NCBI GenBank assembly: GCA_025923995.1
Contig: JAICEW010000023.1
Location: 1-34,493 of the forward strand
Direction of reading: 5' to 3'
DNA length: 34,493 nucleotides
From: Vicinamibacteria bacterium
GTDB taxonomy: Bacteria; Acidobacteriota; Vicinamibacteria; Fen-336
Part shown: positions 1 to 16,600 of the stretch, piece by piece
Layout of the letters: every line of letters begins with the position of its first letter
How positions within the stretch are numbered: the stretch's first letter is position 1
The notes under the pieces: model-generated
What the model saw: only the letters and a program-made list of their open reading frames with translations
Databases searched by the model: none
What the model was told of the DNA's origin: nothing
Made by a program: the position numbers and the translations under genes

Positions 1-1071
<1,071 letters not shown>

Positions 1072-1240
1072 GGCATCCCGTTCCTTTCGATTGGCGCTTC
1101 TTTGCTGAGCCGCTGGAGCCTGAAGAGCAAGAGCCGAGCCATCGCACTTTCGGCGACGGGCATCCGGTCCGGCGCGAATGGGCCGCTCGCGTCCCTTTGC
1201 TCGCCCCGGCCGGCCGGAGCGTCTTCACGCTTTCTGGAAT

Positions 1241-1260
1241 CCGCTGTGATGGGACAGCGG
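1241..1260 (-). terminator. Hairpin between the GGDEF gene and groES
   Basis: A perfect 7-bp inverted repeat (CCGCTGT, loop GATGGG, ACAGCGG) lies about 45 nt past the stop of the GGDEF gene, in the 234-nt gap before groES. It could end the upstream transcript. No U-tract follows on the minus strand, so it is at best a weak intrinsic terminator, and it could instead sit in the groES leader. Nothing else was recognised in the gap. Confidence 0.3.
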
Positions 1261-1305
1261 CCGGGAGATGCTGCGACCGGCCGCCGGCACGACTGCGTCC
1301 TGGGT

Positions 1306-1986
1306 TCAGGACACCGCCGAGTCCGTCCCGCCGGGGAGCGCCGAGCGCCGCTGCTTGTCCCTGTACATCGCGGCGTCGGCGCTGCGCACGAGAGCGCCGG
1401 CGGATTCGCCGTCCTCAGGGAAGAGGCCCACTCCCACACTCGCGCGGATGGCGACCTCGGAGCCGTCGATCCGGAAGGGTGCGCGCAGGGCGTCAAGGAG
1501 CTTCTCGACGACCCGCCCCGCGGCCGCGGCCGCGGTCACGTGCGGGAGAAGCACCGCGAACTCGTCGCCGCCGAGGCGAGCCACCGTGTCCTCGGCGCGC
1601 TCGCTGGCCCGGATCCGGTCGGCGAGCTCCACCAGCACGCGATCGCCGAGGCCGTGGCCCAGCGAGTCGTTGACCGCCTTGAAGCCGTCCAGGTCGAGGT
1701 AGAGCACCGCCAGCCGGCTCTTCTCCCGGGTGGCGTGCGCGATGGCCTGGCTCAGCCGATCGTCGAAGAGGCGCTGGTTCGGCAGGCCCGTCAGCGGGTC
1801 GTGGTAGGCGAGATCGCGGAAGTGCTGCTCCTGCCGCTGCATGCTCGCGAGCGCGGTCCGCAGCCCATCGCGCTCGCCCTGCGACCGGCCGAGGCTCCCG
1901 AGCAGGCGGGTGGCGAGGCGCCGCCACCGAGCCATCTCGCCCACTCCCAGGGCGATCCGATCTTCCTTCCGAGTCGCTTCACTCAC
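1306..1986 (-). CDS. Diguanylate cyclase (GGDEF domain)
   Basis: This 226-residue protein should make cyclic di-GMP from two GTP. A short charged N-terminal helix (about 1-55) is followed by one GGDEF domain that begins at the canonical DPLTGLPNQRLF. The active-site signature is exactly GGDEF (residues 139-143). An RxxD inhibitory site (RAED, 130-133) sits five residues before it, so product inhibition is expected. The metal-binding Asp lies in YLDLDGFKAVND. There is no sensor domain or membrane segment, so the protein is probably cytosolic. The GTG at 1986 gives the longest frame; an ATG 17 codons in (MARWRRLATR) also has a GA-rich upstream stretch. It lies 52 nt downstream of the chalcone-isomerase-like gene on the same strand and may be cotranscribed. 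Confidence 0.93.
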   Translation of the reverse strand: MSEATRKEDRIALGVGEMARWRRLATRLLGSLGRSQGERDGLRTALASMQRQEQHFRDLAYHDPLTGLPNQRLFDDRLSQAIAHATREKSRLAVLYLDLDGFKAVNDSLGHGLGDRVLVELADRIRASERAEDTVARLGGDEFAVLLPHVTAAAAAGRVVEKLLDALRAPFRIDGSEVAIRASVGVGLFPEDGESAGALVRSADAAMYRDKQRRSALPGGTDSAVS

Positions 1987-2038
1987 CGGAACGCCCCAGG
2001 AGCAACGCGTGTGCCATCGGTCGGAAGACCTGCGTCCG

Positions 2039-2674
2039 TTACTGGAGGGACGTCTGCGCCGGCCGTCGGGGGCCCGCCATGAGACCCGCCGCCCGCGAGA
2101 CGAGCTGCTTTCGAAGCGGGTCTTCCGAGGGGCGATCCCGCAGCCAGATGGCGAAGATCGCGTCCGAGAAGGCCTTGTCGGCGATGGGCCGCTTCACCAC
2201 CCCCGCCACGGTGGTCTCCAGCCTGCCGCCAGGAACCCAGCGCAGGACCAGCTCCTGGCCGGCCCTGGTCGAACCGAAGTAGGACACGAACTGGTCGAGC
2301 AGGCGCGGATCGGCCGAGGGCATGTGCGAACGGAACGTTCCCTGGATCTGCTCGGCGGACAGGTCGCGGGCGAGCTTCAGCACGAACTGCTTCTCGAAGT
2401 CGCCGCTCACCAGGTCGCGGTAGAAGGACGACGTGCCGATCCTGCCGTCGTGCACCGCCAGCGCACCGGACAACGCGGAGTCCGCCACGTAGAAGCCCAG
2501 CGCGTACACCTTGAGCTTCAGGATCGTCTTCGTCCGGACGCCGACGCCCATGAGCGACATCTCGCCCACGCGGGCCGGGAAGGCCGCCCCCGTCCTGGGC
2601 TCGGTGACGAGCGGAGGCGGGGCCGGCAGCGCGGCGGCGCAGGACAGGGCGAGAGCGGCAGAGGCGCCGATCAT
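2039..2674 (-). CDS. Secreted chalcone-isomerase-like domain protein
   Basis: This 211-residue protein has a hydrophobic N-terminus (MIGASAALALSCAAALPAPP) that looks like a signal peptide, though it lacks positive charges. The rest resembles the chalcone isomerase-like fold found in many bacterial periplasmic proteins: MGVGVRTKTILKLKVYALGFYV, then the region around QFVLKLARDLSAEQIQ, and a C-terminal KAFSDAIFAIWLRDRP motif. Bacterial members are not shown to isomerise chalcones; some bind fatty-acid-like ligands, and the role here is unknown. The ATG has a purine-rich GAGAGGGG stretch just upstream. The operator-like repeat at 2814-2827 lies 140 nt upstream, between this gene and the divergent racemase operon, so co-regulation with that block is possible but unproven. 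Confidence 0.75.
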   Translation of the reverse strand: MIGASAALALSCAAALPAPPPLVTEPRTGAAFPARVGEMSLMGVGVRTKTILKLKVYALGFYVADSALSGALAVHDGRIGTSSFYRDLVSGDFEKQFVLKLARDLSAEQIQGTFRSHMPSADPRLLDQFVSYFGSTRAGQELVLRWVPGGRLETTVAGVVKRPIADKAFSDAIFAIWLRDRPSEDPLRKQLVSRAAGLMAGPRRPAQTSLQ

Positions 2675-2813
2675 GCACGCCCCTCTCGCTCTCCTGACGG
2701 CCGGCAGCGACGGCGTGTCGGGTGCATCTTGAGAGCGTACGCCCGCGGGGAGGGTTCCGGGGGCGGCTGCCCGAAGTTACTCGGGGCGGCGGACGAAGAC
2801 GCGGCCGGCAGCC

Positions 2814-2827
2814 TCAACACTTGTTGC
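2814..2827. promoter_or_regulatory. Operator-like 14-bp inverted repeat, site 1
   Basis: On the minus strand the site reads GCAACAAGTGTTGA: half-sites GCAACA and TGTTGA around an AG spacer, 5 of 6 positions symmetric. It belongs to the four-copy family described under the findings. It lies in the divergent region between the chalcone-isomerase-like gene and the racemase operon, 90 bp centre to centre from site 2. Confidence 0.6.
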
Positions 2828-2870
2828 GCCGCCCCGGCCGAGGTGGCCTCTGGTGCCGCCGATGATGTGA

Positions 2871-2876
2871 GACAAT
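2871..2876 (+). promoter_or_regulatory. Candidate -10 box of the racemase operon
   Basis: GACAAT matches 4 of 6 positions of TATAAT and lies 9 nt before the ATG at 2886, so transcription would begin at or very near the start codon and the mRNA could be leaderless. No convincing -35 box or Shine-Dalgarno sequence is visible. This is a weak call made from spacing and the absence of a ribosome binding site. Confidence 0.3.
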
Positions 2877-2885
2877 GCCGGCCAC

Positions 2886-4049
2886 ATGCGTGCGCCTGCG
2901 AACGCATCGAGTGTTGCAGCGATAGGCCTTCCCGCTCCCCTGCGACTGGACGCCCTGGAGCTGCGCCTCGCGCGGCTGCGCCTGCTTGAGCCCTTCGAGG
3001 TGAGCTTCGGGCGGATGGACAGCCGGCCCCTCTTCCTGCTGCGGCTGCAGGCGGACGGGCACGAGGGCTGGGGCGAGTGCGCCGCCTTCGACGCCCCCCT
3101 CTTCAGCTACGAGACGGTCGGCACCGCGCGCCACGTGATCCGCGACCACCTGGCGCCGGCGATCCTCGGCCGGGAGGTTCGCGACCTGGCCGACCTCGCC
3201 TCGCGACTCGGTGCCTTCAGGGGCCACCCCATGGCGAAGGCCGCGATCGAGCTGGCCTTCGTGGACCTCCTGGCCCGGTTGCGCGGCGAGCCCGTCGCGC
3301 GGGTCATCGGAGGCGTCCGTCACCACGTCGAGGTCGGGGTGAGCCTGGGCATCCAGCCCACGGTGGACGCGCTGGACGAGAGGGTGCGCCGCTTCCTCGA
3401 CCTCGGCTACCGGCGCATCAAGCTCAAGATCAAGCCGGGCGCCGACGTTCCGGTGGTCGAGGAGATCCGGAGGCGGCACCCGCACATCCTCCTGTCCGTG
3501 GACGCGAACGCGGCCTACACGCTGGCCGACGCCGCGCGGCTGCGCCAGCTCGACGCCTGCCGCCTGCTGATGATCGAGCAGCCGCTGGCCCACGACGATC
3601 TCCTGGACCACGCGCGGCTGCAGATGACGCTCAACACGGCGATCTGCCTCGACGAGAGCATCACCGGCCACGACCGGGCCCGCCAGGCGCTCGACACCGG
3701 CGCCTGCCGCATCGTCAACATGAAGGTCGGCCGCGTGGGCGGCTACAGCGAGGCGCTCCGCATCCACGACCTCTGCCTCGAGCGCGGCGTGCCCCTGTGG
3801 TGTGGCGGCATGCTCGAGTCCGGCGTCGGCCGCGCGCACAACGTGGCACTGGCCAGCCTTCCCGGCTTCACGCTGCCGGGAGACATCTCGGCCAGCCACC
3901 GGTACTTCGAGCGGGACGTCGTCGTGCCGCCGGTTGCGGTGTCCGCGGACGGCACGATCGCCGTCCCCACCTCGCCGGGGCTCGGCTTCGAGATCGACCG
4001 CGACTTCCTGGAAAGCCGCACGGAATGGGTGGAGCGCCTGCGCGCCTGA
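2886..4049 (+). CDS. o-Succinylbenzoate synthase / N-succinylamino-acid racemase (enolase superfamily)
   Basis: This 387-residue protein belongs to the MenC-type NSAR/OSBS family. A capping domain (LEPFEVSFG, GWGECAAFDAP) is followed by a barrel with all catalytic residues: KxK at K179/K181 (RIKLKIKPG), metal ligands D206 (SVDANAAY), E231 (MIEQPL) and D256 (CLDES), and the second general base K280 (NMKVGRVGGYSEA). Members either dehydrate SHCHC in menaquinone synthesis or racemise N-succinylamino acids, and many do both. No other men gene is present and the next gene is an M20 deacylase, the partner known for NSAR-based D- to L-amino-acid conversion, so I favour racemase. The stretch MRAPANASSVAAIGLPAP lies before the family's usual start and covers operator site 2. 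No good ribosome binding site precedes the ATG, so translation may be leaderless. Confidence 0.88.
   Translation: MRAPANASSVAAIGLPAPLRLDALELRLARLRLLEPFEVSFGRMDSRPLFLLRLQADGHEGWGECAAFDAPLFSYETVGTARHVIRDHLAPAILGREVRDLADLASRLGAFRGHPMAKAAIELAFVDLLARLRGEPVARVIGGVRHHVEVGVSLGIQPTVDALDERVRRFLDLGYRRIKLKIKPGADVPVVEEIRRRHPHILLSVDANAAYTLADAARLRQLDACRLLMIEQPLAHDDLLDHARLQMTLNTAICLDESITGHDRARQALDTGACRIVNMKVGRVGGYSEALRIHDLCLERGVPLWCGGMLESGVGRAHNVALASLPGFTLPGDISASHRYFERDVVVPPVAVSADGTIAVPTSPGLGFEIDRDFLESRTEWVERLRA
2904..2917. promoter_or_regulatory. Operator-like 14-bp inverted repeat, site 2
   Basis: GCATCGAGTGTTGC lies just inside the annotated 5' coding end of the racemase gene, about 20-33 nt after the inferred transcription start. 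Together with the next four bases it matches site 4 (10412-10429) at 17 of 18 positions. A repressor bound here would block early elongation. Confidence 0.65.
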
Positions 4050-4070
4050 GGGCGGGCGGAGGGGGCCAGA

Positions 4071-5180
4071 GTGAGCCGCTTCTCCATGGACGCGCTGCTG
4101 CCGGAGCTCGAAGCGCTCGTGGTGCGCGAGAGCCCCTCCGACGACGCGTCCGCGGTCAGCGCCCTGGCTCACCACATCGTGGCGCGCCTGCGCGCCGCGG
4201 GCGTCCACGCCGAGGCGCGCCCGTGCCCGCCGCGCGGTGACGCCGTGCTGGCCACGGTCGGCGGAGGCGCCGGAGGCCGGCTGCTGCTCGGCCACCACGA
4301 CACGGTCTGGCCGCGGGGGACGCTCGCGGAGATCCCCTTTCGCGTCGAGGACGGACGGGTGCGCGGGCCGGGCGTGTTCGACATGAAGGCGGGCATCGCG
4401 GTCGCGATCGCGGTGCTCGAGGACCTGGCCCGGCGCGAAAGCCCTCCCGCGGTCACGCTCCTCCTCACGCCGGACGAGGAGCTGGGGACGGAGGCGTCAC
4501 GGAGCCTCCTGCTCGAGGTGGCACGAGCGCACCGCGAGGTCCTCGTCCTCGAGCCCTCGCTCGGCGGCGCGGCCAAGGTCGCGCGCAAGGGCGCGGCCAG
4601 CTTCGCCTTGACGTTCACCGGACGCGCCGCCCACGCCGGCCTCGATCCCGAGCGTGGCGCGTCCGCCCTGCTGGAGCTGGCCCACTGCACGCTCTTCGCG
4701 GACGCGCTCGCCCGGTCCGACGCGGGCACCACCGTGACGCCCACGGTGGGACAGGCCGGGAACCGGACCAACGTGGTGCCCGACCGGGCCCGGCTCAGCG
4801 TCGACTGTCGCGTGTGGACACGGGCGGAGGCGGAGCGCGTCGAGGCCGCGCTCAGCGCCTATGAGCCGCGCGATGCGCGCGTCAGCGTCGCCCTGGAGGG
4901 CGGGTTTCATCGGCCGCCGCTGGAGCCGACGCCAGCCGCGACCGCGCTCTACGAGCGGGCCCGGTCGATCGCGGCGGAGCTCGGCTTCGACCTCGCGGCC
5001 GCGCGGGTCGGCGGAGCCTCCGACGGGAACCTGACCGCGGCCGCGGGCGTGCCGACCCTGGACGGCCTGGGCCCGATCGGCGACGGAGCGCACGCCCGCG
5101 ACGAGTGGGTCCTGGCCGCCGACCTCGTCCGGCGGGCCGAGCTGCTCGCCCGGCTCGTCGACGGCCACGGGAGCGAGTGA
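4071..5180 (+). CDS. M20-family zinc amidohydrolase (CPG2/ArgE-like deacylase)
   Basis: This 369-residue protein is a two-domain M20 metallopeptidase of the carboxypeptidase G2/ArgE/desuccinylase type. Visible motifs are GHHDTVW (H75, D77), GPGVFDMKAG (bridging D104), the catalytic-base pair in TPDEELGT (residues 135-137), LEPS, the dimerisation domain with GRAAHAGLDPERG, and a C-terminal metal His in GDGAHA. There is no signal peptide, so it should act in the cytosol. It begins with GTG at 4071 after a GGAGGGGG ribosome binding site, 21 nt behind the racemase, and its stop overlaps the next start. In this setting it probably removes the acyl group from N-acyl-L-amino acids made by the racemase. 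It could also be a dipeptidase or folate-type carboxypeptidase; motifs alone cannot decide. Confidence 0.9.
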   Translation: MSRFSMDALLPELEALVVRESPSDDASAVSALAHHIVARLRAAGVHAEARPCPPRGDAVLATVGGGAGGRLLLGHHDTVWPRGTLAEIPFRVEDGRVRGPGVFDMKAGIAVAIAVLEDLARRESPPAVTLLLTPDEELGTEASRSLLLEVARAHREVLVLEPSLGGAAKVARKGAASFALTFTGRAAHAGLDPERGASALLELAHCTLFADALARSDAGTTVTPTVGQAGNRTNVVPDRARLSVDCRVWTRAEAERVEAALSAYEPRDARVSVALEGGFHRPPLEPTPAATALYERARSIAAELGFDLAAARVGGASDGNLTAAAGVPTLDGLGPIGDGAHARDEWVLAADLVRRAELLARLVDGHGSE

Positions 5181-6283
5181 TGGGCGACTTCTTCAGGCGA
5201 TACCTGCTGCCCGGCTTCGTCTTCGAGGCCGCGGTGATCGGCGGCGGGTACGCCACGGGGCGCGAGCTCGTGGAGTTCTTCCTTCCCGCCGGCCCGCTGG
5301 GCGGGCTGCTCGGGATGGTCGTGAGCATGCTGGTGTGGAGCGCCGTCCTGGCCGTGAGCTTCGAGCTGGCGCGGCGGGCGCGCGCCTACGACTACCGCTC
5401 GTTCCTGAAGCTGCTGCTCGGGCGCGGCTGGTTCCTGTTCGAGGTCGCCTACCTCCTGTTGATCGTCCTCATCCTGGCGGTGATGGGGGCGGCGGCGGGC
5501 GAGATCGTCCACAGCCTGTTCGCGGCGCCGCGGCTCGTCGGCTCGCTGCTCATGATCGCCGGCGTCGCCGCGGTCCTGTTCTTCAGCAGCGGGGCGATCG
5601 AGAAGTTCCTCTCCCTCACGGTCGGCTACCTCTACCTCGTCTACGTCGTGTTCGTGGTCTGGAGCCTCGCGACCTTCGGCGACCGCATCGGGGCCGCCCT
5701 GGCGGCGGAGCCGATCGGACACCGCTGGTTCATGGCCGGCGTCACCTACGCGGGGTACAACGTCGCCACCATTCCGGCCGTCCTGTTCAGCATCCGGCAC
5801 CTGACCCGCAAGCGTGAGGCCGTGGCGGCGGGGCTGCTGGCCGGTCCGCTCGGCATGCTGCCGGGCCTGGCCTTCTACCTCGCGATGATCGGCTACCACC
5901 AGGAGATCCAGGCCGCGGCCCTGCCGTCGGCCTTCCTGCTGGCCAAGCTCCACGCGCCCTGGTTCGAATGGGCGTTCCAGGCGGCCGTCCTGCTGACCCT
6001 GGTGGACACCGGGGTGCCGATCCTCCACGCCGTCAACGAGCGCGTGGCGAAGGCCTACGAGGAGCGCCAGCAGACGATGCCCCGGGCGCTGCGCCCCGCG
6101 CTGGCGGTGGGGATCATGGTCCTGTCCGTCTATGCCGCCGCCGCCGTGGGGTTGATCGGCCTCATCGCCAAAGGCTACGGCGTGCTGACCTATGCGTTCA
6201 TCGCGCTGCTCGTCCTGCCCGTGCTGACGGTCGGGCTCTGGACGTTGCGGAGGCTCCCGGCTACTCCTTCGGCGCCGGCCTGA
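5180..6283 (+). CDS. YkvI-type multispanning membrane protein (putative transporter)
   Basis: This 367-residue, very hydrophobic protein has roughly ten predicted membrane segments. It begins MGDFFRRYLLPGFVFEAAVIGGGYATGRE, the conserved opening of the YkvI (COG3949) family, which is related to APC/LeuT-fold carriers. The first segment has the broken-helix glycine pattern (AAVIGGGYATG). Family substrates are not established. Since it is translationally coupled to the M20 gene (TGATG, one shared base, start at 5180), it is likely to carry the substrate or product of the two enzymes, perhaps an amino acid or N-acylamino acid. Its 3' end overlaps the convergent serine hydrolase gene by 23 nt. A frame open to GTG 5105 exists, but the family start and coupling favour 5180. 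Confidence 0.82.
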   Translation: MGDFFRRYLLPGFVFEAAVIGGGYATGRELVEFFLPAGPLGGLLGMVVSMLVWSAVLAVSFELARRARAYDYRSFLKLLLGRGWFLFEVAYLLLIVLILAVMGAAAGEIVHSLFAAPRLVGSLLMIAGVAAVLFFSSGAIEKFLSLTVGYLYLVYVVFVVWSLATFGDRIGAALAAEPIGHRWFMAGVTYAGYNVATIPAVLFSIRHLTRKREAVAAGLLAGPLGMLPGLAFYLAMIGYHQEIQAAALPSAFLLAKLHAPWFEWAFQAAVLLTLVDTGVPILHAVNERVAKAYEERQQTMPRALRPALAVGIMVLSVYAAAAVGLIGLIAKGYGVLTYAFIALLVLPVLTVGLWTLRRLPATPSAPA

Positions 6284-7862
6284 AGTCCAGGTCCTGGTAG
6301 TCGAAGCTGAAGTCCGCCAGCGGCGAGACCGCCTTCATGCCGATGCGATCGATGGTGCCGTCGGCCTTGAGCGCGAACGTCACGTAGGCCGGCTCGATCA
6401 GGCGGTCGCGCCAGTCCACGCGGAAGGTGTCGTACTGCCAGTGGGTCAGCTGGCCGGTCATGCCGGGCGTCTGCTTGAAGTCCATGGTCAGCCGTCCGTC
6501 GGCGTGCGCGATCGCGACCTCTCCGTACCAGGGATCCGCGAACGTGCCGGCGTAGCGCTCGAGCGGGAGCGAGGGGCCGACACGCGCCGGCGCGCCGGCC
6601 TGCTTGTTCAGCAGCGCCACCGCCTTCTCGTCCCTCTGGCGCACGAACTCCTGCCAGGCGGCGGCCCAGTCGTAGCGGGGCCGTCCCAGGTAGTGGTCGA
6701 GCAGCTCGTAGGCGATGCCCAGCGCGGCTTCGCCGTCCTCGCAGTTGATCGCCACCGAGAAGCCGACGTTGCGCTCCGGCACCAGCACGATGACCGCCTG
6801 CGCGCCGAACACCGCCCCCGTGTGCATGAGGAGCCTGTGGCCGCGATAGTCCCGCTCGTTCCACCCCAGCGCGTAGGAGCTGAACTGCGGCGTCGCCGCC
6901 GCGACCGGCTCCGGCGCCGGGCTGATGGGCAGGTGCACGCGCGGCGTCCACATCTGGCGCGACGACTCCTCGCTGAACAGGCGCCCGCCGCCTTCCGGCA
7001 GCGCCCCCTTCGCGAGGTGGATCGCGATCCAGCGGCCCATGTCGTTGGCGCTGGCCGCGACGCCGCCCGCCGGCGCCGCGTTGCTCCCCAGCTCGGGATC
7101 GAGCTCCGCCTTCCCGCTGTCGTCGAGGGACTCCTGCGTGCCCATGCCGTGCATGGGGCCGTCGCGGCGCGCGTGCGGCCAGGCGCGGTTGTCCGCGCGC
7201 CGGCGCTCGACGCGGTCCGACGTCGCGGTGCGCATGCCGGCCGGGACCAGGACCTGCTCGCGCACGAAGCGCTCCCACGTGGTCCCGGTCACCTCCTCGA
7301 CCAGCTGGCCGGCCACGACGTAGAGCACGTTGTCGTAGGCATAGCCGCTGCGGAAGCTGGTCGCGGGCCGGATGTGGCGGAGGCGACGGACCGTCTCGGC
7401 GCGGGTGAGCGTCGACCGCGGCACGAACATGAGGTCGCCGGCGCCGAGGCCCAGGCCACTGCGGTGCACGAGCAGATCGATCACCGTCATCTCTCGCGTG
7501 ACCCACGGGTCGTACATCTGGAACCACGGGACGTGCTTGGTGACCGGGTCGTCCCAGGCGATCCGGCCGCGGTCGACGAGGATGGCCAGCGCGGCCGTGG
7601 TGAACGCCTTGCCGACCGAGCCCAGCTGGAAGAGCGTGTCCGCGTCGATGGGGGCGCTCTCGCCCAGCCTGCGGACGCCGTAGCCGCGCGCGAGCGTCAC
7701 GCGTCCGTTCTCCACGATCGCCACCGCGACGCCGGGAACGCCGACCGCCTTCCGGACCTGCTCGACGCGCGCGTCGAACCTCGGAGGAGGGTCGGCCCAC
7801 GCCGTGCCCGCGAGGCACAGGGCCGCGGCCGCGAGGGTCCCCGCTCTCGAGATCCGTTCCAT
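6261..7862 (-). CDS. Periplasmic serine hydrolase (beta-lactamase/D-aminopeptidase family) with DUF3471-like tail
   Basis: This 533-residue protein begins MERISRAGTLAAAALCLAGTAWA, a typical signal peptide. The penicillin-binding-protein/class C beta-lactamase fold is shown by SVGK (catalytic S82, K85), YDN (Y176-x-N178) and a third motif HTG. Members hydrolyse D-amino-acid peptides, esters or beta-lactams. After about residue 420 comes a domain like DUF3471 (LERYAGTFADPWYGEVAIAHADGRL), common in such enzymes. The ATG at 7862 is 8 nt past the stop of the TonB-dependent receptor, so the two form an operon. A secreted peptidase paired with an outer-membrane receptor suggests trimming of imported peptides. 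It is more likely a D-aminopeptidase-like enzyme than a resistance beta-lactamase, since it is long and chromosomally embedded. Confidence 0.9.
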   Translation of the reverse strand: MERISRAGTLAAAALCLAGTAWADPPPRFDARVEQVRKAVGVPGVAVAIVENGRVTLARGYGVRRLGESAPIDADTLFQLGSVGKAFTTAALAILVDRGRIAWDDPVTKHVPWFQMYDPWVTREMTVIDLLVHRSGLGLGAGDLMFVPRSTLTRAETVRRLRHIRPATSFRSGYAYDNVLYVVAGQLVEEVTGTTWERFVREQVLVPAGMRTATSDRVERRRADNRAWPHARRDGPMHGMGTQESLDDSGKAELDPELGSNAAPAGGVAASANDMGRWIAIHLAKGALPEGGGRLFSEESSRQMWTPRVHLPISPAPEPVAAATPQFSSYALGWNERDYRGHRLLMHTGAVFGAQAVIVLVPERNVGFSVAINCEDGEAALGIAYELLDHYLGRPRYDWAAAWQEFVRQRDEKAVALLNKQAGAPARVGPSLPLERYAGTFADPWYGEVAIAHADGRLTMDFKQTPGMTGQLTHWQYDTFRVDWRDRLIEPAYVTFALKADGTIDRIGMKAVSPLADFSFDYQDLDFRPAPKE

Positions 7863-7870
7863 CGCGGGCG

Positions 7871-10228
7871 CTACGAGCCCCACAACCTCGTGCCGATCGA
7901 GAGCCCGACGGACCGGGGCCGGATCAGCCCGAGCGCCAGCGCGCCGTTCGGCAGCAGACCGGGATCGCCGATCGAGGTGATGCCCAGCTCGTTCGCCAGG
8001 TTCCTGCCGTAGAGCTCCACGGACCACTTGCCGACGTACAGGCCTGCGCGCAGGTTCACGGTGGTGAAGCCCTCCGCCTCCCTGAGGCTGCCGTCGGCCG
8101 CCCTGTTGTCGAAGGCGATCGTGCGGTCGCCCGTATAGCCGAGGCTGCCGCCGACGTAGGCCCGCGAGCTGCCCTTCACCGTCCACTCGTAGTCGGCGCT
8201 GAGCCCGAAGCTCCACTTCGGCACGTACGGGAGAGGATCGCCGTCCAGGCCTCCCACGACGGGGTCGGTGTCCTGCGTGAGCTTGGCGTCCGTGTAGGCT
8301 GCGGTGAGCGACAGCGCGAGGCCGTTCAGCGGGAACACGTTGGCCGCGACCTCGGCCCCCTTGCTCGAGGCCGTTCCGCCGTTGCCGTTGATCCCGAAGT
8401 TGTTGACCACGGCCAGCAGCTGGATGTCCTCCCAGTCCAGGTAGTAGCCGGTCAGGTCGAGCGAGAACCTGTCGGCCGCCCCACCCCCGGTCTTGAGGCC
8501 CAGCTCGTAGCTGGTCAGTCGGTCCGAGTCGTACTGCCTCGGGATCTCCGGAGGAGCCGCAGGCGGGAGGACGTTGGGCCCGCCCGGCCGGAAGCCGGTC
8601 GCGATCCGGCCGTAGATCGACGCGCGGTCGTTCAGCTCGAAGCGCGGGGCGAACGAATACGTGAACGGGGTCTCCGAGGACTCCACCTCGTCGAACTGCG
8701 TCAGCCCACCCACCAGGACGCCGTCGGAGAGCTGCGAGGCGACCTGGCTGTTGTGGCTGAGGCGGCCGCCGACGGCCAGGTCCAGCCGCGGCGTGGCGTG
8801 CCAGGTGGCGTTGCCGAACCCGGCGATCTCCTTGTACGTCGAGTCCAGCGACAGGTCGGCGAGGACGGGCACCCCGCCGGCCACGGTGCCGGCAACGGCC
8901 TCGACGGCGAGTATCTTCTGCTTGATCGCGGAGTCCTCGTTCGTGTAGTACGCCCCCACCAACCACTCGAAGGAGTCGCTCTTGCTGGAGACGAGGCGGA
9001 GCTCCTGCGCGAACTTGTCCGTGCTGGTCGTCTGCGGAAGCACGGCGCTCAACGGCCGCGACGCGTTGCCGAAGAGGGCGGTCACCAGGGAGGACAGGGC
9101 CGGCCCTCCCGTCAGGTTGGTCGCGATGGTCAGGTCGGTCTGGAAGTCCGACTCGAACGTGCCGAAGCTCGAGATGGACTCGAGGCTGGCCGGACCGAGG
9201 TTCCAGTCCACCGTGCCGCTGAAGATCCGGTACTTCGTGTCGTTGAACTCCGACTGGTATCGGGACTGGACCGGATCGTCGTCGATCGCCTGCAGCGTGT
9301 CGGGATCGCCGTCCACCGTGCTGCCGGCGTCGGTGTCGATGTTCTGCACGTTCACGCCCAGGTTCACCGAGAGCGTCTCGGAGGGCTTGAACAGCGCAGC
9401 CAGGCGCCCGCCGAACCGGTCGAGCGAGTTGAGGCCGTCCTCGACGCGGGTGCCCGGGATGATGTCGACGCCCGGGTTCGTGAGGCTGGGGACCGGGTGG
9501 TTGCCGATCGAGTCGATGAAGCCGCTGTCGAACCGGTACAGCCCGCTGACCCGCAGAGCGACCTTGTCGCTCAGCGGCACGTTCACCAGCCCGGTCATGG
9601 AGTAGGCCGGATCGCCGTTGGCGACCGTCTCGGCGCTGCCCAGCACCCGCGCCTCGAACCTCTCCGTGCTGGGCCGGTTCGGAACGTACTTCATCACGCC
9701 ACCGACCGAGCTGGCGCCGTACAGGGTGCCCTGCGGGCCGCGCAGCACCTCGATCCTGGCGACGTCGAACGTGTCGAAGTCGCCGGCCAGGATGGCGGCG
9801 TTGGCCAGGCCGCTGCTGGACCCGAACGGCACGTCGTCGAAGTAGACGCCGACGGTGGAGGCCACACCGCCGGTGTTGACGCCGCGCAGGGTCACGCGGG
9901 TGACCCCGGGCCGGGTGGCGGTGAGGCTCAAGCCAGGGACCAGCGGCACCAGGGCCTCCAGGTCGTCGGCGCGCTGCTGCTCCAGCAACTGGCCCCCGAC
10001 GACCGTGACCGAGGCCGGGATGTCCGCGATCTCCTCCGTCCGTTTCTGGGCGGTGACCTCGACGTCCTCGCGGAAGGCGAGGGGCTTGGAGGTGTCGTCC
10101 TCGCCGGCGGGCGGCGGGGCCTCCTGCGCCTTCTTCTGCGCGTCCGTCGGCGGCGGCTCCTGTGCCCAGGCCAGTGTCGCGGCGAGCGAGCCGATCAGGG
10201 CGACCACGCTCGTTGTCGAAGGACGCAT
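7871..10228 (-). CDS. TonB-dependent outer-membrane receptor
   Basis: This 785-residue protein has a signal peptide (MRPSTTSVVALIGSLAATLAWAQ), a proline-rich linker and a TonB-box-like EDVEVTAQKR. The plug domain follows (ADIPASVTVVGGQLLEQQ, GVTRVTLRGVN, and IEVLRGPQGTLYGASSVGGVM). The 22-strand barrel fills residues 190-785 with alternating aromatic strands. Such receptors import siderophores, vitamins, sugars or peptides using TonB energy; the substrate cannot be read from sequence. Because it is in an operon with a serine hydrolase and has the same operator-like element as the racemase operon, I infer a peptide or cell-wall fragment. An AGGAGGT ribosome binding site stands 5 nt before the ATG. 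The last residue is Ser rather than the usual Phe/Trp. Confidence 0.92.
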   Translation of the reverse strand: MRPSTTSVVALIGSLAATLAWAQEPPPTDAQKKAQEAPPPAGEDDTSKPLAFREDVEVTAQKRTEEIADIPASVTVVGGQLLEQQRADDLEALVPLVPGLSLTATRPGVTRVTLRGVNTGGVASTVGVYFDDVPFGSSSGLANAAILAGDFDTFDVARIEVLRGPQGTLYGASSVGGVMKYVPNRPSTERFEARVLGSAETVANGDPAYSMTGLVNVPLSDKVALRVSGLYRFDSGFIDSIGNHPVPSLTNPGVDIIPGTRVEDGLNSLDRFGGRLAALFKPSETLSVNLGVNVQNIDTDAGSTVDGDPDTLQAIDDDPVQSRYQSEFNDTKYRIFSGTVDWNLGPASLESISSFGTFESDFQTDLTIATNLTGGPALSSLVTALFGNASRPLSAVLPQTTSTDKFAQELRLVSSKSDSFEWLVGAYYTNEDSAIKQKILAVEAVAGTVAGGVPVLADLSLDSTYKEIAGFGNATWHATPRLDLAVGGRLSHNSQVASQLSDGVLVGGLTQFDEVESSETPFTYSFAPRFELNDRASIYGRIATGFRPGGPNVLPPAAPPEIPRQYDSDRLTSYELGLKTGGGAADRFSLDLTGYYLDWEDIQLLAVVNNFGINGNGGTASSKGAEVAANVFPLNGLALSLTAAYTDAKLTQDTDPVVGGLDGDPLPYVPKWSFGLSADYEWTVKGSSRAYVGGSLGYTGDRTIAFDNRAADGSLREAEGFTTVNLRAGLYVGKWSVELYGRNLANELGITSIGDPGLLPNGALALGLIRPRSVGLSIGTRLWGS

Positions 10229-10274
10229 GAACCACCTCCTAAGCGTTGCCCGATGCGGTCAGCGAGCGGCCGCG

Positions 10275-10303
10275 ATCACAGCATCAAATGTTGCATGTGT
10301 CAA
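10275..10303 (-). promoter_or_regulatory. Sigma70-type promoter of the receptor-hydrolase operon
   Basis: On the minus strand a perfect TTGACA (10303-10298) is followed by a 17-bp spacer and TGTGAT (10280-10275, 4 of 6). The operator-like repeat lies entirely inside the spacer, the classic place for repression. Transcription should begin near 10268, about 40 nt before the ATG. Confidence 0.6.
10281..10294. promoter_or_regulatory. Operator-like 14-bp inverted repeat, site 3
   Basis: GCATCAAATGTTGC: half-sites GCATCA and TGTTGC, 5 of 6 symmetric, 2-bp spacer. It lies between the -35 and -10 boxes of the receptor promoter. Confidence 0.68.
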
Positions 10304-10375
10304 GCCTCCGCCGCGGCCGCGCGGGCCTGCCGGCGCCGAGCCCGCGCCCCCACTTGCGGCGGCGACCCGCGCATC

Positions 10376-10406
10376 TTGACGGCTTCCCCGCCCAATGGGA
10401 TAGACT
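10376..10406 (+). promoter_or_regulatory. Sigma70-type promoter of the membrane-anchored serine hydrolase
   Basis: TTGACG (10376-10381, 5 of 6) is followed after 17-19 bp by GATAGACT (10399-10406), whose TAGACT matches 4 of 6 of the -10 consensus. The predicted start of transcription near 10412 falls on operator site 4. Confidence 0.55.
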
Positions 10407-10411
10407 CCGAA

Positions 10412-10425
10412 GCATCAAGTGTTGC
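10412..10425. promoter_or_regulatory. Operator-like 14-bp inverted repeat, site 4
   Basis: GCATCAAGTGTTGC, the best copy of the motif, overlaps the inferred transcription start and precedes the GGAGGT ribosome binding site (10429-10434). It includes a GTG codon in frame with the downstream gene, which would be a misleading start. Confidence 0.68.
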
Positions 10426-10445
10426 AGCGGAGGTCCACAAGCGCC

Positions 10446-12446
10446 ATGACTCGCCCGTCACGCCCCGGAACCACGTGCCTCCGGACCGGTCTTGCATCGG
10501 CCCTCGGCCTGCTGGCCGCCCTCGCCGCCGCCGCGGACGCGCCCGCGCGCGGCTTCGACGCGGGAGGCGATGCGACCTACCGTCCCGTGGCGGCCGCGCC
10601 GCAGCCGCTGGACGGCGGGGGCCTGCGCACTCCCGAGGAGCTGGAGGCCTTCGTGGACGGCTTCGTGAGCGGCGAGCTCGAGGCCTACGACGTGGCCGGC
10701 CTGACCGTGGCCGTGGTCAAGGACGGGCAGCTCTTCTTCGCCAAGGGCTACGGCTGGGCGGACGTGGACGGCCGCGTGCCTGTCGATGTGGACAAGACGC
10801 TGTTCCGCCCCGGCTCCGTGTCCAAGCTCTTCACCTGGACCGCGGTCATGCAGCTCGTCGAGCAGGGAAAGCTGGACCTGGACGCGGACGTCAACACCTA
10901 CCTGACCCAGTTCAAGATCCCCTCCACGTACCCGGCGCCCATCACGCTCCGGCACGCGCTGACGCACACGGTGGGGCTGGAGGACGGCGGCATCGGCTAC
11001 CTGATGGCGCGCAGCCCCGAGCAGATCGTGCCCCTGGGCCGGTCGCTGGCCGACCACGTGCCCGCCCGCGTGCGGCCGGTGGGGACCAGCGGCGAAGGGC
11101 TCAGCTCGTCCTACTCCAACTGGGCCACGGCCCTGGCCGGCCTGATCGTGGCGAACGTGTCCGGTGTGTCATTCGAGGACTATGTCGAAGCGAACATCCT
11201 GCGCCCGCTGAAGATGGAGAGCAGCACGTTCAAGGAGCCGCTCCCGGAGGCGCTCTCGAAGCGGATGTCGGCCGGCTACTCGTTCGAGGCGGGAGCGTTC
11301 AAGGCGCACGGCTACGAGTACATCGCGAACTTCGGCCCCGCCGGCGCGCTGGCCGCCACCGCGCCCGACATGGCGCGCTTCATGATCGCGCACCTCCAGG
11401 AGGGAGCGGCGGGAGACGCCCGCATCCTGAAGCCGGAGACGGCCCGCGCCATGCACGCGCGCGTGTTCAGCCCCCACTCCGCCGTCGACGGGTCCGGCCT
11501 GGGCTTCTACGAGACGCACATGAACGGCCGGCGGATCATCGGGCACGGCGGCGACACGAACTACTTCCACACCGAGCTGGGGCTGCTCGAGAAGGAGGGC
11601 GTCGGGTTCTTCTTCTGCGTCAACACCGGCGGCAAGGCGGCGCTGGTGCCGCGGCACTTCGTCCGCGCCTTCATGGACCACTACTTCCCGGCGCGCCTGC
11701 CGGAGGTGAAGCCCCCCGACGACTTCAACGCGCGGGCCGCGAAGTACGCCGGTCGCTACGGCGCGATCCGCCATTCCTACACCCGCTTCGAGAAGGTGTT
11801 CGGCCTGGCGGGAGGGGCCGCCGTCGCCCCCAGCGGGAAGAACACCCTCATCATCCCGGACCTGTTCGGCGAAAGCGCGCAGTACGCGGAGGTGGCGCCC
11901 GGCGTCTTCCGCGAGGTCGGGGGCGACCGCACCGTCGCGTTCGTCGAGGACGGAGCGGGTCGGGTCACGGGCATGGTCGGACAGTTCGCGTTCATCCCCT
12001 TCGTCAAGCTGCGCTGGTACCAGGGCCCGCCCTTCCACTTCCTGCTGCTCGGGCTGTCGCTGCTCTTCTTCCTGATCGCCCTGGTGTCGGCGCTGCGGCA
12101 CTGGAAGGCCGACCAGGCCGGGCCATCCGCCGCCCGCTGGGCCCGGCTCAACCTGGGCCTGCTGGCGCTGCTGAACCTGGTCTTCCTCGTGGCCTTCGCC
12201 TCGATCTTCGCGGCGGGCATGGACGACATCGTCTTCGCGACGCCCAAGGGCCTGTACGCGGTGCTGACCCTGCCGTTGATCGGCCTCGTGCTCGCGGCGC
12301 TCGCGGTGTACCTGCTCGTGCGCGTCTGGCGGGAGAAGTACTGGACGCGCGCGTCGCGCGTGTACCACACGGCGGGAGTGGTGTCGGCGATCGCCTTCGT
12401 GTGGTTCCTGAACTACTGGAACCTGCTGGGCTACCGGGTCGGCTAG
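10446..12446 (+). CDS. Serine hydrolase (beta-lactamase family) with four C-terminal membrane helices
   Basis: This 666-residue protein has a signal peptide (TGLASALGLLAALAAAADAPA), then a class C beta-lactamase/D-aminopeptidase-like domain with SVSK (S124, K127), YSN (Y223-x-N225) and a third motif HGG (GHGGDTN). A beta-rich region follows. About residues 520-666 hold four hydrophobic helices (FLLLGLSLLFFLIALVSAL and three more), placing the catalytic domain on the periplasmic face of the inner membrane. I chose ATG 10446 because GGAGGT precedes it; a GTG at 10419 lies inside the operator. It is a paralogue of the hydrolase at 6261-7862, and both are behind the same operator motif. A likely role is cleaving D-residue peptides near the transporter; the true substrate is unknown. 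Confidence 0.88.
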   Translation: MTRPSRPGTTCLRTGLASALGLLAALAAAADAPARGFDAGGDATYRPVAAAPQPLDGGGLRTPEELEAFVDGFVSGELEAYDVAGLTVAVVKDGQLFFAKGYGWADVDGRVPVDVDKTLFRPGSVSKLFTWTAVMQLVEQGKLDLDADVNTYLTQFKIPSTYPAPITLRHALTHTVGLEDGGIGYLMARSPEQIVPLGRSLADHVPARVRPVGTSGEGLSSSYSNWATALAGLIVANVSGVSFEDYVEANILRPLKMESSTFKEPLPEALSKRMSAGYSFEAGAFKAHGYEYIANFGPAGALAATAPDMARFMIAHLQEGAAGDARILKPETARAMHARVFSPHSAVDGSGLGFYETHMNGRRIIGHGGDTNYFHTELGLLEKEGVGFFFCVNTGGKAALVPRHFVRAFMDHYFPARLPEVKPPDDFNARAAKYAGRYGAIRHSYTRFEKVFGLAGGAAVAPSGKNTLIIPDLFGESAQYAEVAPGVFREVGGDRTVAFVEDGAGRVTGMVGQFAFIPFVKLRWYQGPPFHFLLLGLSLLFFLIALVSALRHWKADQAGPSAARWARLNLGLLALLNLVFLVAFASIFAAGMDDIVFATPKGLYAVLTLPLIGLVLAALAVYLLVRVWREKYWTRASRVYHTAGVVSAIAFVWFLNYWNLLGYRVG

Positions 12447-13390
12447 GCCTGCTTCCGGCGGCGCGCGCTCCGCCCCTGGCTGGACCTGTCCTCGTCGGGA
12501 GCCTCCTCGTACCAGCGGGGCCCCGAGAGGTACTCCTTCTCCGTCTGCCGCAGCAGGGCGAGCGCGCGGCTGGGCGCGATCTCCGCGCAGGCGAGGACGA
12601 CGGCGTTGAGGAGCGCCATGGGGGCGACGTACGAGCCGCTGAACGTCGCGCCCACGGTCGAGGCCACGAAGTACTCGTCGCACTCGCGGGCCAGCGGCGT
12701 GGTGTCGCTGTCCGTGAGCGCCACCGTCGGCACGCCGCGGCTCCGCGCGAGCTTCGCCGACTCGACGGTGACGCGGAGGCAGCGGCCGAAGCTGATGGCG
12801 ACGAGGAGGTCCTTGCGGGCCAGCAGCCGGATCTTGTGCTGGAGGTTGCCGCCGGTGCCGACCGGCGCTTCCGCGTCGAAGCCGAGGGGCAGGAGCGCGT
12901 AGGCCAGGAACGAGGCCAGCGACGCGGCCAGGTCCGAGCCGACCACCAGGATGCGCCGCGCCTGGTGGATCCGCCGGGCGAAGCCGACCACGCGCTCGGG
13001 GTCGAGGCCGCTCTGCAGCCGGTTCAGGTTCCCGAGGTCCCGTTCCAGGCTGTGCCGCACGTGGTCGGCCAGGCTGCGCTTCTCGTCGGTCGTGGCCTTG
13101 AGGATCCGGTAGGGGGTGAGCCGGGAGACGAAGTGCTCGCGGAGGTCGGCCGCGAAGTCGTTGTACCGCCGGTAGCCGAGGGCCTGCACCGTGCGCACGA
13201 TCGTGGCGGGGTCGACGCGGTACCGCCGGGCCAGCGCGCGCGAGGAGAGGAAGAAGGTCTCGTCCGGGTTCTCCAGCGTGGCCTGCAGCAGGCGTCTGCG
13301 GTTCGGCGAGAGCCGCCCCTCGAACTGCGCGATCCTCTTCTCGATGGCCGTGCGAGTCGGAATGCCGGGACTCCTTCCTCGCACCAGCAT
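12443..13390 (-). CDS. MurR/RpiR-family transcriptional regulator (HTH plus SIS domain)
   Basis: This 315-residue protein has an N-terminal HTH_6 domain (about 15-95: LSPNRRRLLQATLENPDETF, then SRALARRYRVDPATIVRTVQALGY, the recognition helix region) and a C-terminal SIS domain (about 140-270: RRILVVGSDLAASLASFLAYAL, LLVAISFGRCLRVTVESAKLARSRGVPTVALTD). Such regulators bind phosphosugars or related ligands; MurR senses MurNAc-6-phosphate. Since it is the only regulator in the block with four copies of one operator-like repeat, it is the best candidate to bind them. Its stop shares the palindrome CTAG with the stop of the convergent hydrolase. The ATG follows no strong ribosome binding site. None of the operator copies lies at its own promoter, so autoregulation is not suggested. 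Confidence 0.9.
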   Translation of the reverse strand: MLVRGRSPGIPTRTAIEKRIAQFEGRLSPNRRRLLQATLENPDETFFLSSRALARRYRVDPATIVRTVQALGYRRYNDFAADLREHFVSRLTPYRILKATTDEKRSLADHVRHSLERDLGNLNRLQSGLDPERVVGFARRIHQARRILVVGSDLAASLASFLAYALLPLGFDAEAPVGTGGNLQHKIRLLARKDLLVAISFGRCLRVTVESAKLARSRGVPTVALTDSDTTPLARECDEYFVASTVGATFSGSYVAPMALLNAVVLACAEIAPSRALALLRQTEKEYLSGPRWYEEAPDEDRSSQGRSARRRKQA

Positions 13391-13436
13391 ACTTGGAAAC
13401 CGGCCGGCCCCTCGTCGGGCCGGCCGGCGGGACGCT

Positions 13437-13483
13437 CGTCACGCGTTTGCGGGGGTCTTCCGCATGTCACGAAACGCGTGACG
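13437..13483. repeat. 12-bp perfect inverted repeat upstream of the xylanase promoter
   Basis: CGTCACGCGTTT (13437-13448) and AAACGCGTGACG (13472-13483) are exact inverted copies separated by 23 bp. Each arm contains the palindrome ACGCGT, and the arm centres are about 33 bp apart, near three helical turns. The element is in the divergent region between the RpiR gene and the xylanase and ends 5 bp before a TTGACA box, so a two-site operator is likely; a hairpin is the alternative. Confidence 0.55.
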
Positions 13484-13488
13484 TCCCC

Positions 13489-13517
13489 TTGACACGACTC
13501 CGGGCCGTGATCATCTT
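13489..13517 (+). promoter_or_regulatory. Candidate promoter of the xylanase gene
   Basis: A perfect TTGACA (13489-13494) is followed after 17 bp by CATCTT (3 of 6). The -10 box is poor, so an activator bound at the inverted repeat just upstream may be needed. Confidence 0.4.
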
Positions 13518-13613
13518 CGTTTGAGACAAAGTTCCAGACACACCCCAGCGCCGGCCGCGTACGGCCGGAGGTGTGCCGAGCCTCGAGCGGGTGTTCGAAG
13601 AAGGAGTCCCTCC

Positions 13614-16600
13614 ATGAAGTCTCCGGTGCGCCTCGTCCTCGCCGTCCCCATCGTCCTGCTTGCGCTGCTGGCGGCCGCGCCCGGCGCGGCCCAGACCCTC
13701 GTCGTCCAGCACGACTTCGAGGACGGCACGTTCCAGGGCTGGGTCCCCCGCGGCGGCGGCGTCGTGCTCACGAACACCGAAGAGGTGGGATCGCGCACGG
13801 GCGGGGTCGGGACGCACAGCCTTCGCACGACGAACCGCACGCAGGGCTTCCACGGGCCGAGCGTCCAGACGCTGGGGCTCCTCACGAAGGGCGCGACCTA
13901 TCAGGTGACCGTGTGGGCCCGGCTGGTCGCGGGCCAGGCGCCGGCGCAGCTGCGGGTGACGGTGCAGCGGACGGTCAACGGCGCGAACAGCTTCGACACG
14001 GTCGTCCAGACGGCGGCCGGGGCCGTGACCGACGCGGCCTGGGTGCAGATGACGGGCCTCTATGCGTTCGCGGGCACGGATCCGACGGGCCTGCTGCTCT
14101 ACGTGGAGTCCACCACGGCGACCACGTCGTACTACATCGACGACTTCCGCATCGACAAGATCGCCGACGCGCCGGGCCTGCCGCCCAACACGGCCGGGCT
14201 CACCTCGACCTTCGAGTCGGGCACGACGGAGGGCTGGACCTCGCGCACCGGCACCGAGGTGGTCGCGCCGTCGTCCGCGGACGCGCACTCGGGCGGCTTC
14301 TCGCTCCTCACCACCAACCGCACCGCCGCCTTCCGCGGTCCCAACTTCAACGTCACGAACGTGATGTTCAACGGGTCACGCTATCGCGTGTCCGTGTGGG
14401 CGAAGCTGGCTCCCGGCGAGGCCCCGGCCCAGCTGCGGGTGAGCCTGCAGCGCAACGCCGGCACCGTTCCCTCCACGTTCCACACGGTCGTGAACAACAC
14501 GAACGTCACGGCCGACGCGTGGGTGCGGCTGGTCGCGACGTACGACGTCGCGCTCGCCAACAGCTCGCTGTTCCTCTACGTCGAGTCGGCCAGCTCGCTC
14601 GCGTCCTTCTTCATCGACGACGTCCAGGTGACCTACATCCCGCCGCCCACGATCGAGACCGACATCCCCTCCCTGCACGAGGTGCTGGCCGACTCGTTCC
14701 CGATCGGGGCCGCGGTGCGCAACGCGGCCGTCGCCGGCGTGCACGGCGACCTGCTGAAGAAGCACTTCAACAGCCTGACGTCCGAGAACGACATGAAGTG
14801 GGACGCGACCGAGCCCACCGAGGGCAACTTCACGTTCACGAACGCGGACCAGCAGGTGGCGTTCGCCGAGCAGAACGGCATGCAGGTGCGCGGGCACACG
14901 CTCCAGTGGCACCAGCAGGTCCCGGCCTGGGTGTTCACCGACCCCGCGACCGGCCAGCCCATGCAGCCCTCCCCCGCCAACCACGACCTGCTCCTGCTGC
15001 GCCTCGCCAACCACGTGCGCGGCGTGGTCACGCACTTCGGGGACAGGGTCTTCGCCTGGGACGTGGTCAACGAGGTGATCGACGAGAACCAGCCCGACTG
15101 CATGCGGCGCAGCCCCTGGTTCAACATCACGGGGACCGACTTCCTCGACACCGCCTTCCGCACCGCGCGCGAGGCGGCTCCCGACGCGCTGCTGTTCATC
15201 AACGACTTCAACACCACGATCCCGAACAAGCGGCAGTGTCTCTTCAACGTGGTGTCGGCCCTGCAGGCCCGCGGCGTGCCCGTCGACGGCGTGGGGCACC
15301 AGATGCACGACAACTTCGAGTTCCCGTCCGCGCAGAGCATGGCCGACACGCTGGACCTGTTCGCCGGGCTCGGCGTGACGCAGCACGTCACCGAGATGGA
15401 CGTGAGCATCTACTCGGGCAGCGCGAACGCGCCCTTCGCGAACTACGACGAGATCCCGTCCGAGCGCTTCCTGCTCCAGGCCCGCCACTACCGCGACTTC
15501 TTCCGCGTCTTCCGCGCGCACGCCGGCCAGCTCACGTCGGTCACGCTCTGGGGCCTCGCGGACGACGTCACGTGGCTCAACAGCTCCGGCCGCGTCAACG
15601 GCCCGCTGCTCTTCGACGACCAGCTCCAGCACAAGCTCGCCTACACCGCCATCGTGAGCCCGCAGGACCTGCCGCGGACGCCGGCCACGGTGACGCTCTC
15701 CAACCTGGTGCAGGTCTACGACGGCAGCCCGCGCGCCGTCGCCGTCGCCACCGATCCCGCGGGTCTCCTCGTGAACGTCACGTACGACGGTTCCCCCCAG
15801 CCGCCCGTCTACCCCGGCGCGTATGCCGTCCAGGCCGCGATCGACAGCGAGGACTTCGCGGGGACGGCCGCGGCCACGCTGCTGATCGTGAGCCCGAACG
15901 TGACGCGCCGCGCGCCGACGCTCAACGGGCGCCTGAACGGGTCGCTGCAGGTCCTGACGGGCGAGTCGATCGTCCTCAACGGCCCCGCGTCGGTGACCGG
16001 CGACCTGCTCGCGCCCGGCTCGCCGTCCGTGCTGCTCAACGGGCTGCCGTCCTACGGCGGCACGCTCGATGCCGACGGCGACGTCGCGCCGTCCGGATAC
16101 CCGGTGGTCCTGAACGGTGGGGCCGCGCTGCGGCACCTCGTGCGCCGGGTGGATCCGGCCGCCTTCCCCACCGTCGCGCCTCCGCCGGCGCCTGCCGGGA
16201 CGCGGAACGTGGTGCTGAGCGCGCCCGGCCAGAGCCCCGGAGACTTCGCGACGCTCCGGAACCTCACGCTGAACAGCGGGGCGGGCCTGGTCGCCGTCCC
16301 ACCCGGCACGTACGGCTCGTTCGTCGCGAACGGACCCGCCGGGTTCGTGCTCGGCGTTGCGGGCGCGACCACTCCCGCCGCCTACGCTCTCCAGGGCCTG
16401 ACGCTCAACGGAGGCGCCACGCTGCAGGTGGTGGGGCCGATCGTCCTGACGATCGCGACGGGTGTCACGCTGAACGGGTCCGCGGGCAGCGCGACGCATC
16501 CGGAATGGCTGTCGCTCCAGGTCGCCGCCGGCGGGGTGACGCTCAACGGCGGCGCGACGCTGAGCGCGTTCGTGACCGCCCCCGCGGGCACGGTGATGCT

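Follow-up and report, generated by a model that had tools for sequence, protein, structure and literature searches.

In Geobacillus kaustophilus, a racemase of the NSAR family, an M20 succinylase and a GNAT succinyltransferase turn D- into L-amino acids, and in E. coli and Bacillus peptides are recycled by D-aminopeptidase (DppA) and dipeptide-epimerase systems. Microbial cell-wall remains hold much of the nitrogen in soil, partly as D-amino acids, and the uptake and use of D-residue peptides by soil bacteria are poorly known. Here we analyse a 34,493-nucleotide stretch of DNA (contig JAICEW010000023.1; the window) from a Vicinamibacteria bacterium of the phylum Acidobacteriota (G000; genome of 6.8 Mb, 96.8% complete), and in it a cluster of six genes at 2886-12446 together with the regulator gene that follows. 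We think it likely that this locus is a repressor-controlled module for the uptake and use of short peptides containing D-amino acids. An earlier note, made from the letters of the window, had put forward the core of this idea, the use of D-residue peptides by way of an N-acyl racemase. It is probably right and has been strengthened by the loci of orthologous regulators, which hold genes for a D-Ala-D-Ala dipeptidase, an M55 peptidase, an N-acyl-D-amino-acid deacylase, M19 dipeptidases and GNAT proteins; the operators, the geometry of repression and the phylum-wide regulon described below are additions to it.

Like the Geobacillus route, the locus has an NSAR-family racemase beside an M20 deacylase, and a GNAT protein is encoded in the same genome and, in sister systems, at the same locus. 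It differs in that the set stands under an RpiR-type regulator with an operator of its own and is accompanied by a receptor, exported hydrolases and a carrier, while its GNAT gene is unlinked. Like the DppA and epimerase systems, it would take up D-residue peptides and process them stereochemically, and an M55 D-aminopeptidase (locus L164) and a dipeptide-epimerase-like enolase (L147) are found near orthologs of the regulator; unlike those systems, it combines an N-acyl racemase with TonB-dependent uptake and PF00144 hydrolases. The D-to-L chemistry is thus already known, whereas the regulon, its regulator and operator, the uptake modules and the carrier assignment appear to be undescribed in the open-access papers searched. 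Our search of these papers returned nothing linking NSAR with RpiR-type regulators and nothing on D-amino acids in Acidobacteria; a query for an RpiR/TonB-dependent/D-amino-acid regulon turned up only unrelated chitin work, and a combined D-enzyme query only unrelated work.

Three gene units share one operator

Pfam and NCBIfam profile searches, translations and the structure model of the carrier upheld all six gene calls of the earlier note at their coordinates. The genes form three units: NSAR-M20-carrier on the plus strand (2886-6283), receptor-hydrolase A on the minus strand (10228-6261) and hydrolase B on the plus strand (10446-12446). The regulator that the note had also named is indeed present as a protein of the RpiR/MurR superfamily, but its gene (12443-13390, minus strand) lies just beyond the block.

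The exact operator GCATCRARTGTTGCA occurs three times in the 6.8-Mb genome, where about 0.014 copies are expected from base composition, and all three copies are at the locus (2904, 10281 and 10412), one per unit. It is near-palindromic, marks each of the three promoters and has the form TGCAWCA-NN-TGWTGCA, to which the regulator is predicted to bind. Because one operator is common to the three promoters and its exact form is confined to this locus, the grouping of the genes is not due to chance; moreover, a similar cluster was found again in other genera.

At the NSAR promoter the operator GCATCGAGTGTTGCA (2904-2918, plus strand) lies just inside the predicted NSAR start, and a weaker fourth site, TCAACACTTGTTGC (2814-2827; 11/12 match to GCAWCANNTGWTGC), is situated 90 bp from it. 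The site at 2904 is conserved in two loci from Acidobacteria metagenome-assembled genomes (L033 at 10019, L034 at 10007), and both sites are conserved blocks in the three genomes. At the receptor-hydrolase A promoter, a promoter-like TTGACA-17 bp-TGTGAT (10275-10303, minus strand) has its spacer filled by the operator GCATCAAATGTTGCA (10281-10295). At the hydrolase B gene, the exact match GCATCAAGTGTTGCA (10412-10426, plus strand; kept at L033 16302) is just downstream of TTGACG-17 bp-GATAGA and starts right after the -10-like GATAGA. These -35 and -10 elements were read by eye; a scan for a simple sigma-70 consensus called no promoter. L033 keeps both promoter-operator arrangements, and such a placement over the receptor and hydrolase B promoters fits repression.

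Beyond this genome, zero-mismatch operators in the two sister genomes (G008 and G010) are found at the regulator loci only. We derived the motif GCAWCA-NN-TGWTGC from the window, L033 and L034 and tested it on 13 other loci, where start codons were placed by eye so that the upstream stretches are approximate: the 7.7 kb of DNA preceding regulated genes contained 15 sites and the other 194 kb only 3 (Fisher p 4e-19), while the reversed motif gave none upstream and 2 elsewhere. The operator was thus found in 12 of the 13 loci outside the derivation set. Among all 15 other loci with a regulator ortholog, 14 carry it in their upstream stretches, with a match of at least 11/12 (10/12 in one). A genome-wide palindrome scan with one mismatch was not used to extend the regulon; it was noisy, and its 17 sites in genome G201 were mostly intragenic.

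The racemase, the deacylase and the N-acyltransferase

The first gene of the NSAR unit (2886-4049, plus strand) encodes a predicted N-acylamino acid racemase of the NSAR/OSBS family, with 324 bits to TIGR01928 against a cutoff of 200.65. The solved structures nearest to it are those of N-acylamino acid racemases (2zc8 scores best, with 378 bits; also 1r0m and 1sja), and in alignment with 2zc8 the catalytic motifs KLKIKPG, VDANAAY, MIEQPL, CLDESI and NMKVGR are intact. The two catalytic lysines (KxK and K) and the D/E/D metal ligands are kept, which places the protein in the NSAR/OSBS subfamily. The adjoining gene (4071-5180, plus strand; PF01546/PF07687) encodes an M20 metallohydrolase with carboxypeptidase G2 (CPG2) as its best relative in the PDB, proposed to be an N-acyl-L-amino-acid deacylase. 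Its position is that expected for a D-to-L pathway built on NSAR; the pairing of NSAR with an L-succinylase is cited in PMC7431475.

The GNAT gene, which adjoins NSAR in 55 of 80 NSAR loci, is absent from the window locus, as the earlier note had remarked when it called the transferase missing. It is, however, not missing from the genome: a single GNAT homolog (C12) is encoded elsewhere, beside an amino-acid-permease-like gene, and in both sister genomes the single ortholog (67-73%) likewise lies next to an amino-acid-permease-like gene. This rules out a genome devoid of the transferase.

Hydrolases, receptor and carrier

Serine hydrolase A (SH_A; 6261-7862, minus strand; exported, PF00144 with DUF3471) and serine hydrolase B (SH_B; 10446-12446, plus strand) are PF00144 members with the SxxK and further active-site motifs. 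The relatives of SH_A in the PDB include the D-amino acid amidase 2dns and the alkaline D-peptidase 4y7p, and those of SH_B an alkaline D-peptidase and ClbP; for both they also include beta-lactamases and esterases. As these activities are mixed, the exact activity cannot be read from the sequence, and with 60-64 bits to the D-aminopeptidase model PRK13128 (cutoff 443) only membership in the PF00144 superfamily is secure. In SH_B a signal-like segment precedes the PF00144 domain and C-terminal membrane helices, seen as hydropathy peaks, follow it; its structure model is poor (pLDDT 68).

The TonB-dependent outer-membrane receptor (7871-10228, minus strand) has PF07715 and PF00593 domains and an N-terminus like a signal peptide. 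The carrier (5180-6283, plus strand) has neither a Pfam nor an NCBIfam match. Its AlphaFold2 model (pLDDT 91) has a LeuT/APC fold: Foldseek matches it to many carriers of this fold with probability 1.0, and the query-normalised TM-score to the AgcS sodium/alanine symporter (6cse) is 0.72, top among the matches listed. The identity to AgcS is only about 15%. The model points to an inner-membrane carrier of the YkvI/APC type, with amino acids or small products as its predicted cargo. YkvI-like carriers adjoin or lie near NSAR also in L033, L164, L073, L083 and L198.

The regulator is not a MurR equivalog

The regulator has the HTH_6 and SIS architecture of MurR and RpiR proteins, with both domains over cutoff (PF01418, 31.7 bits; PF01380, 61.7 bits). 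The earlier note had taken it to be of MurR type, which would fit a cell-wall signal. This view is weak: the protein scores 25.5 bits against the MurR equivalog model (cutoff 408), and its SIS loop reads ISFGRCLRVT where the RpiR structure 4ivn reads SSSGST, so that the usual serine-rich motif is gone. We therefore reject a MurR equivalog. All compared regulators, acidobacterial orthologs as well as RpiR proteins of Bacillota, have an ISF... or FSF... loop, and because of this alteration MurNAc-6-P or another sugar phosphate is not supported as the ligand. Candidates for the inducer are D-amino acids and their N-acyl derivatives.

Enzymes acting on D-residues recur with the regulator

The search for regulator orthologs took in 193 genomes at class level and 396 at phylum level. 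We set 16 loci with an ortholog against 20 arbitrary loci of 20 kb each, most of them taken from those same genomes; some of the query proteins used for the counts came from the very loci counted. PF00144 hydrolases are encoded at 14 of the 16 regulator loci but at 1 of the 20 arbitrary ones. NSAR-type enzymes (10 of 16, a count that takes in fragments and the dipeptide-epimerase-like enolase of L147) are found at no arbitrary locus, and the same is true of M19 and S15 peptidases (5 of 16 each) and of GNAT and D-aminoacylase-like (N-acyl-D-amino-acid deacylase) enzymes (4 of 16 each). Receptors are encoded at 14 of 16 versus 4 of 20. Pfam searches furthermore detected a fusion of PF00144 with a VanX-type D-Ala-D-Ala dipeptidase (L034, L163), the M55 D-aminopeptidase of L164, M19 dipeptidases (L140, L168), amidohydrolases akin to N-acyl-D-amino-acid deacylases (L142, L168) and GNAT proteins. 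L164 joins an M20-GNAT-regulator group with a TBDR-NSAR-carrier group (TBDR, TonB-dependent receptor), and its carrier is 73% identical to that of the window.

In the NSAR tree, the enzymes linked to the regulator fall into two separate, well-supported clades, that of the window and that of another acidobacterial family, and NSAR therefore joined the regulon at least twice. A parallel arrangement exists in Bacillota: Viridibacillus has the order RpiR-GNAT-NSAR-M19-serine hydrolase-oligopeptide ABC (the ABC genes read by eye), and Edaphobacillus (L073, 8225-14544) has RpiR-GNAT-NSAR-carrier followed by a nagA-like gene, also read by eye, which suggests a tie to amino-sugar or wall catabolism in that phylum.

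In four further loci (L143-L146), the regulator belongs to a distinct subfamily with 36% identity. Its neighbours are genes for receptors and for peptidases of the tricorn or S15 type, with neither NSAR nor PF00144 genes, and a sister regulon that deals with different peptides may be represented here.

Proposed route and alternative explanations

We propose that the receptor brings peptides into the periplasm, where SH_A and SH_B, penicillin-binding-type serine hydrolases that would favour D-residues, cut them, and that the LeuT-fold carrier takes freed amino acids or small products inward across the inner membrane. D-amino acids would be N-acylated in the cytoplasm by the unlinked GNAT protein or enter already N-acylated; NSAR would invert the N-acyl-D-amino acids, and the M20 deacylase would free the L-amino acids. 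The RpiR-type protein would repress the three promoters at TGCAWCA-NN-TGWTGCA until a ligand from the pathway releases it. Because genes for a receptor, hydrolases, a carrier, N-acylation, racemisation and deacylation are all present, the proposed route would be encoded in full. We infer a D-substrate because enzymes acting on D-residues keep company with the regulator; peptidoglycan is a possible source of the peptides.

Several observations weigh against this proposal. The region of the regulator's own promoter lacks an operator, and no good operator was found in L164; five regulator loci (L160-L163, L167) have no NSAR gene in the DNA covered. The M20 gene is absent from the L033 cluster, with a 64% relative elsewhere in that genome, and the GNAT protein of the window genome is unlinked and only 31-37% identical to NSAR-linked ones. 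The window receptor is of another type than the Oar-like receptors at other loci. Finally, the functions of the enzymes in this lineage are assigned by homology, and both PF00144 proteins and M20 proteins of the CPG2 kind are functionally diverse, with esterases, beta-lactamases and folate hydrolases among them.

The regulon might instead serve general scavenging of peptides and N-acyl-amino acids, with D-residues incidental and NSAR and M20 acting on N-acylated amino acids whatever their handedness. Peptidases of the S15, tricorn and prolyl-oligopeptidase types do occur at regulator loci, PF00144 specificity is broad and the window locus has no GNAT gene. We nevertheless consider this explanation unlikely, since the VanX-type dipeptidase, the M55 D-aminopeptidase and D-aminoacylase-like enzymes recur under the regulator and a racemase is useful only where the wrong hand is present.

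We give a still smaller chance to a response to cell-wall damage or beta-lactams, in which the regulator would sense wall fragments and induce beta-lactamase-fold enzymes and the D-Ala-D-Ala dipeptidase for protection or recycling. VanX-type domains at regulator loci would suit such a response, as would two class A beta-lactamases: in L142 a single open reading frame (12116-14755) encodes an amidohydrolase resembling N-acyl-D-amino-acid deacylases together with a class A beta-lactamase domain that scores 217 bits (curated cutoff 200), and in L198, from another acidobacterial family, the order at 222-3942 is class A beta-lactamase-YkvI-like carrier-GNAT-NSAR, which may link the beta-lactamase to D-amino-acid metabolism. 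The receptor, carrier, peptidases, racemase and deacylase are, however, uptake and catabolic functions, and the window hydrolases reach only 80-81 bits against the class C beta-lactamase model (bla_class_C; cutoff 415).

Uptake and opening of one D-residue peptide natural product, siderophore or antibiotic-like, rather than general nutrition, is very improbable. The best NCBIfam model for the window receptor is a TonB-dependent siderophore receptor, but at 142 bits it is below the cutoff of 223.5, and neither a siderophore reductase nor an iron regulator was seen. The SH_B layout, a PF00144 domain followed by membrane helices, resembles the membrane-anchored D-peptidase ClbP; the similarity is low, however (about 50 bits), with no prodrug synthesis genes seen near SH_B, and other loci have Oar-type receptors and several general peptidases.

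That the racemase is the menaquinone o-succinylbenzoate synthase (OSBS, MenC), as the name of its top NCBIfam model, TIGR01928, implies and as the earlier note had considered for a genome with men genes, can be dismissed: the 96.8% complete genome has no MenD over cutoff (best 78 versus 244 bits), encodes MqnA/MqnD-family proteins of the futalosine route and holds a second NSAR-family gene elsewhere (C315), which groups with sister-genome copies in the tree.

If the module does serve D-residue peptide use, Acidobacteriota, an abundant and hard-to-culture soil phylum, would gain a defined and testable route, which its regulator and operator would make traceable in any genome. The uncharacterised YkvI carriers would gain a role, the NSAR/OSBS enzymes, known for their promiscuity, would be placed in a physiological context, and a SIS-domain regulator with a ligand probably other than a sugar phosphate would be identified. 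A wider picture, which we put forward tentatively and hold to be somewhat less than an even bet, is that of a modular, repeatedly reassembled regulon throughout the phylum. Its SIS repressor, having lost the sugar-phosphate loop, would respond to D-amino acids, to their N-acyl forms or to peptides with D-residues, and by means of this regulon Acidobacteriota in soil would feed on polymers that contain D-residues, for instance peptidoglycan remains or nonribosomal peptides. The parallel version in Bacillota would rely on an ABC importer for oligopeptides, under a regulator whose loop is altered in a similar way.

Neighbouring genes

No structured RNA and no tRNA were detected in the window. At its edge, groEL and groES lie on the minus strand (1-1071), followed by genes for a GGDEF protein (1306-1986) and a chalcone-isomerase-like protein (2039-2674). 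On the other side, the regulator is adjoined by a gene for a secreted multidomain xylanase-like protein (13614-16679) with two CBM_4_9 stretches, a GH10 domain (323 bits) and an MBG_3 domain. Between the two is a perfect 12-bp inverted repeat, CGTCACGCGTTT / AAACGCGTGACG (13437-13484), which is unrelated to the operator described here and is possibly the site of another regulator.

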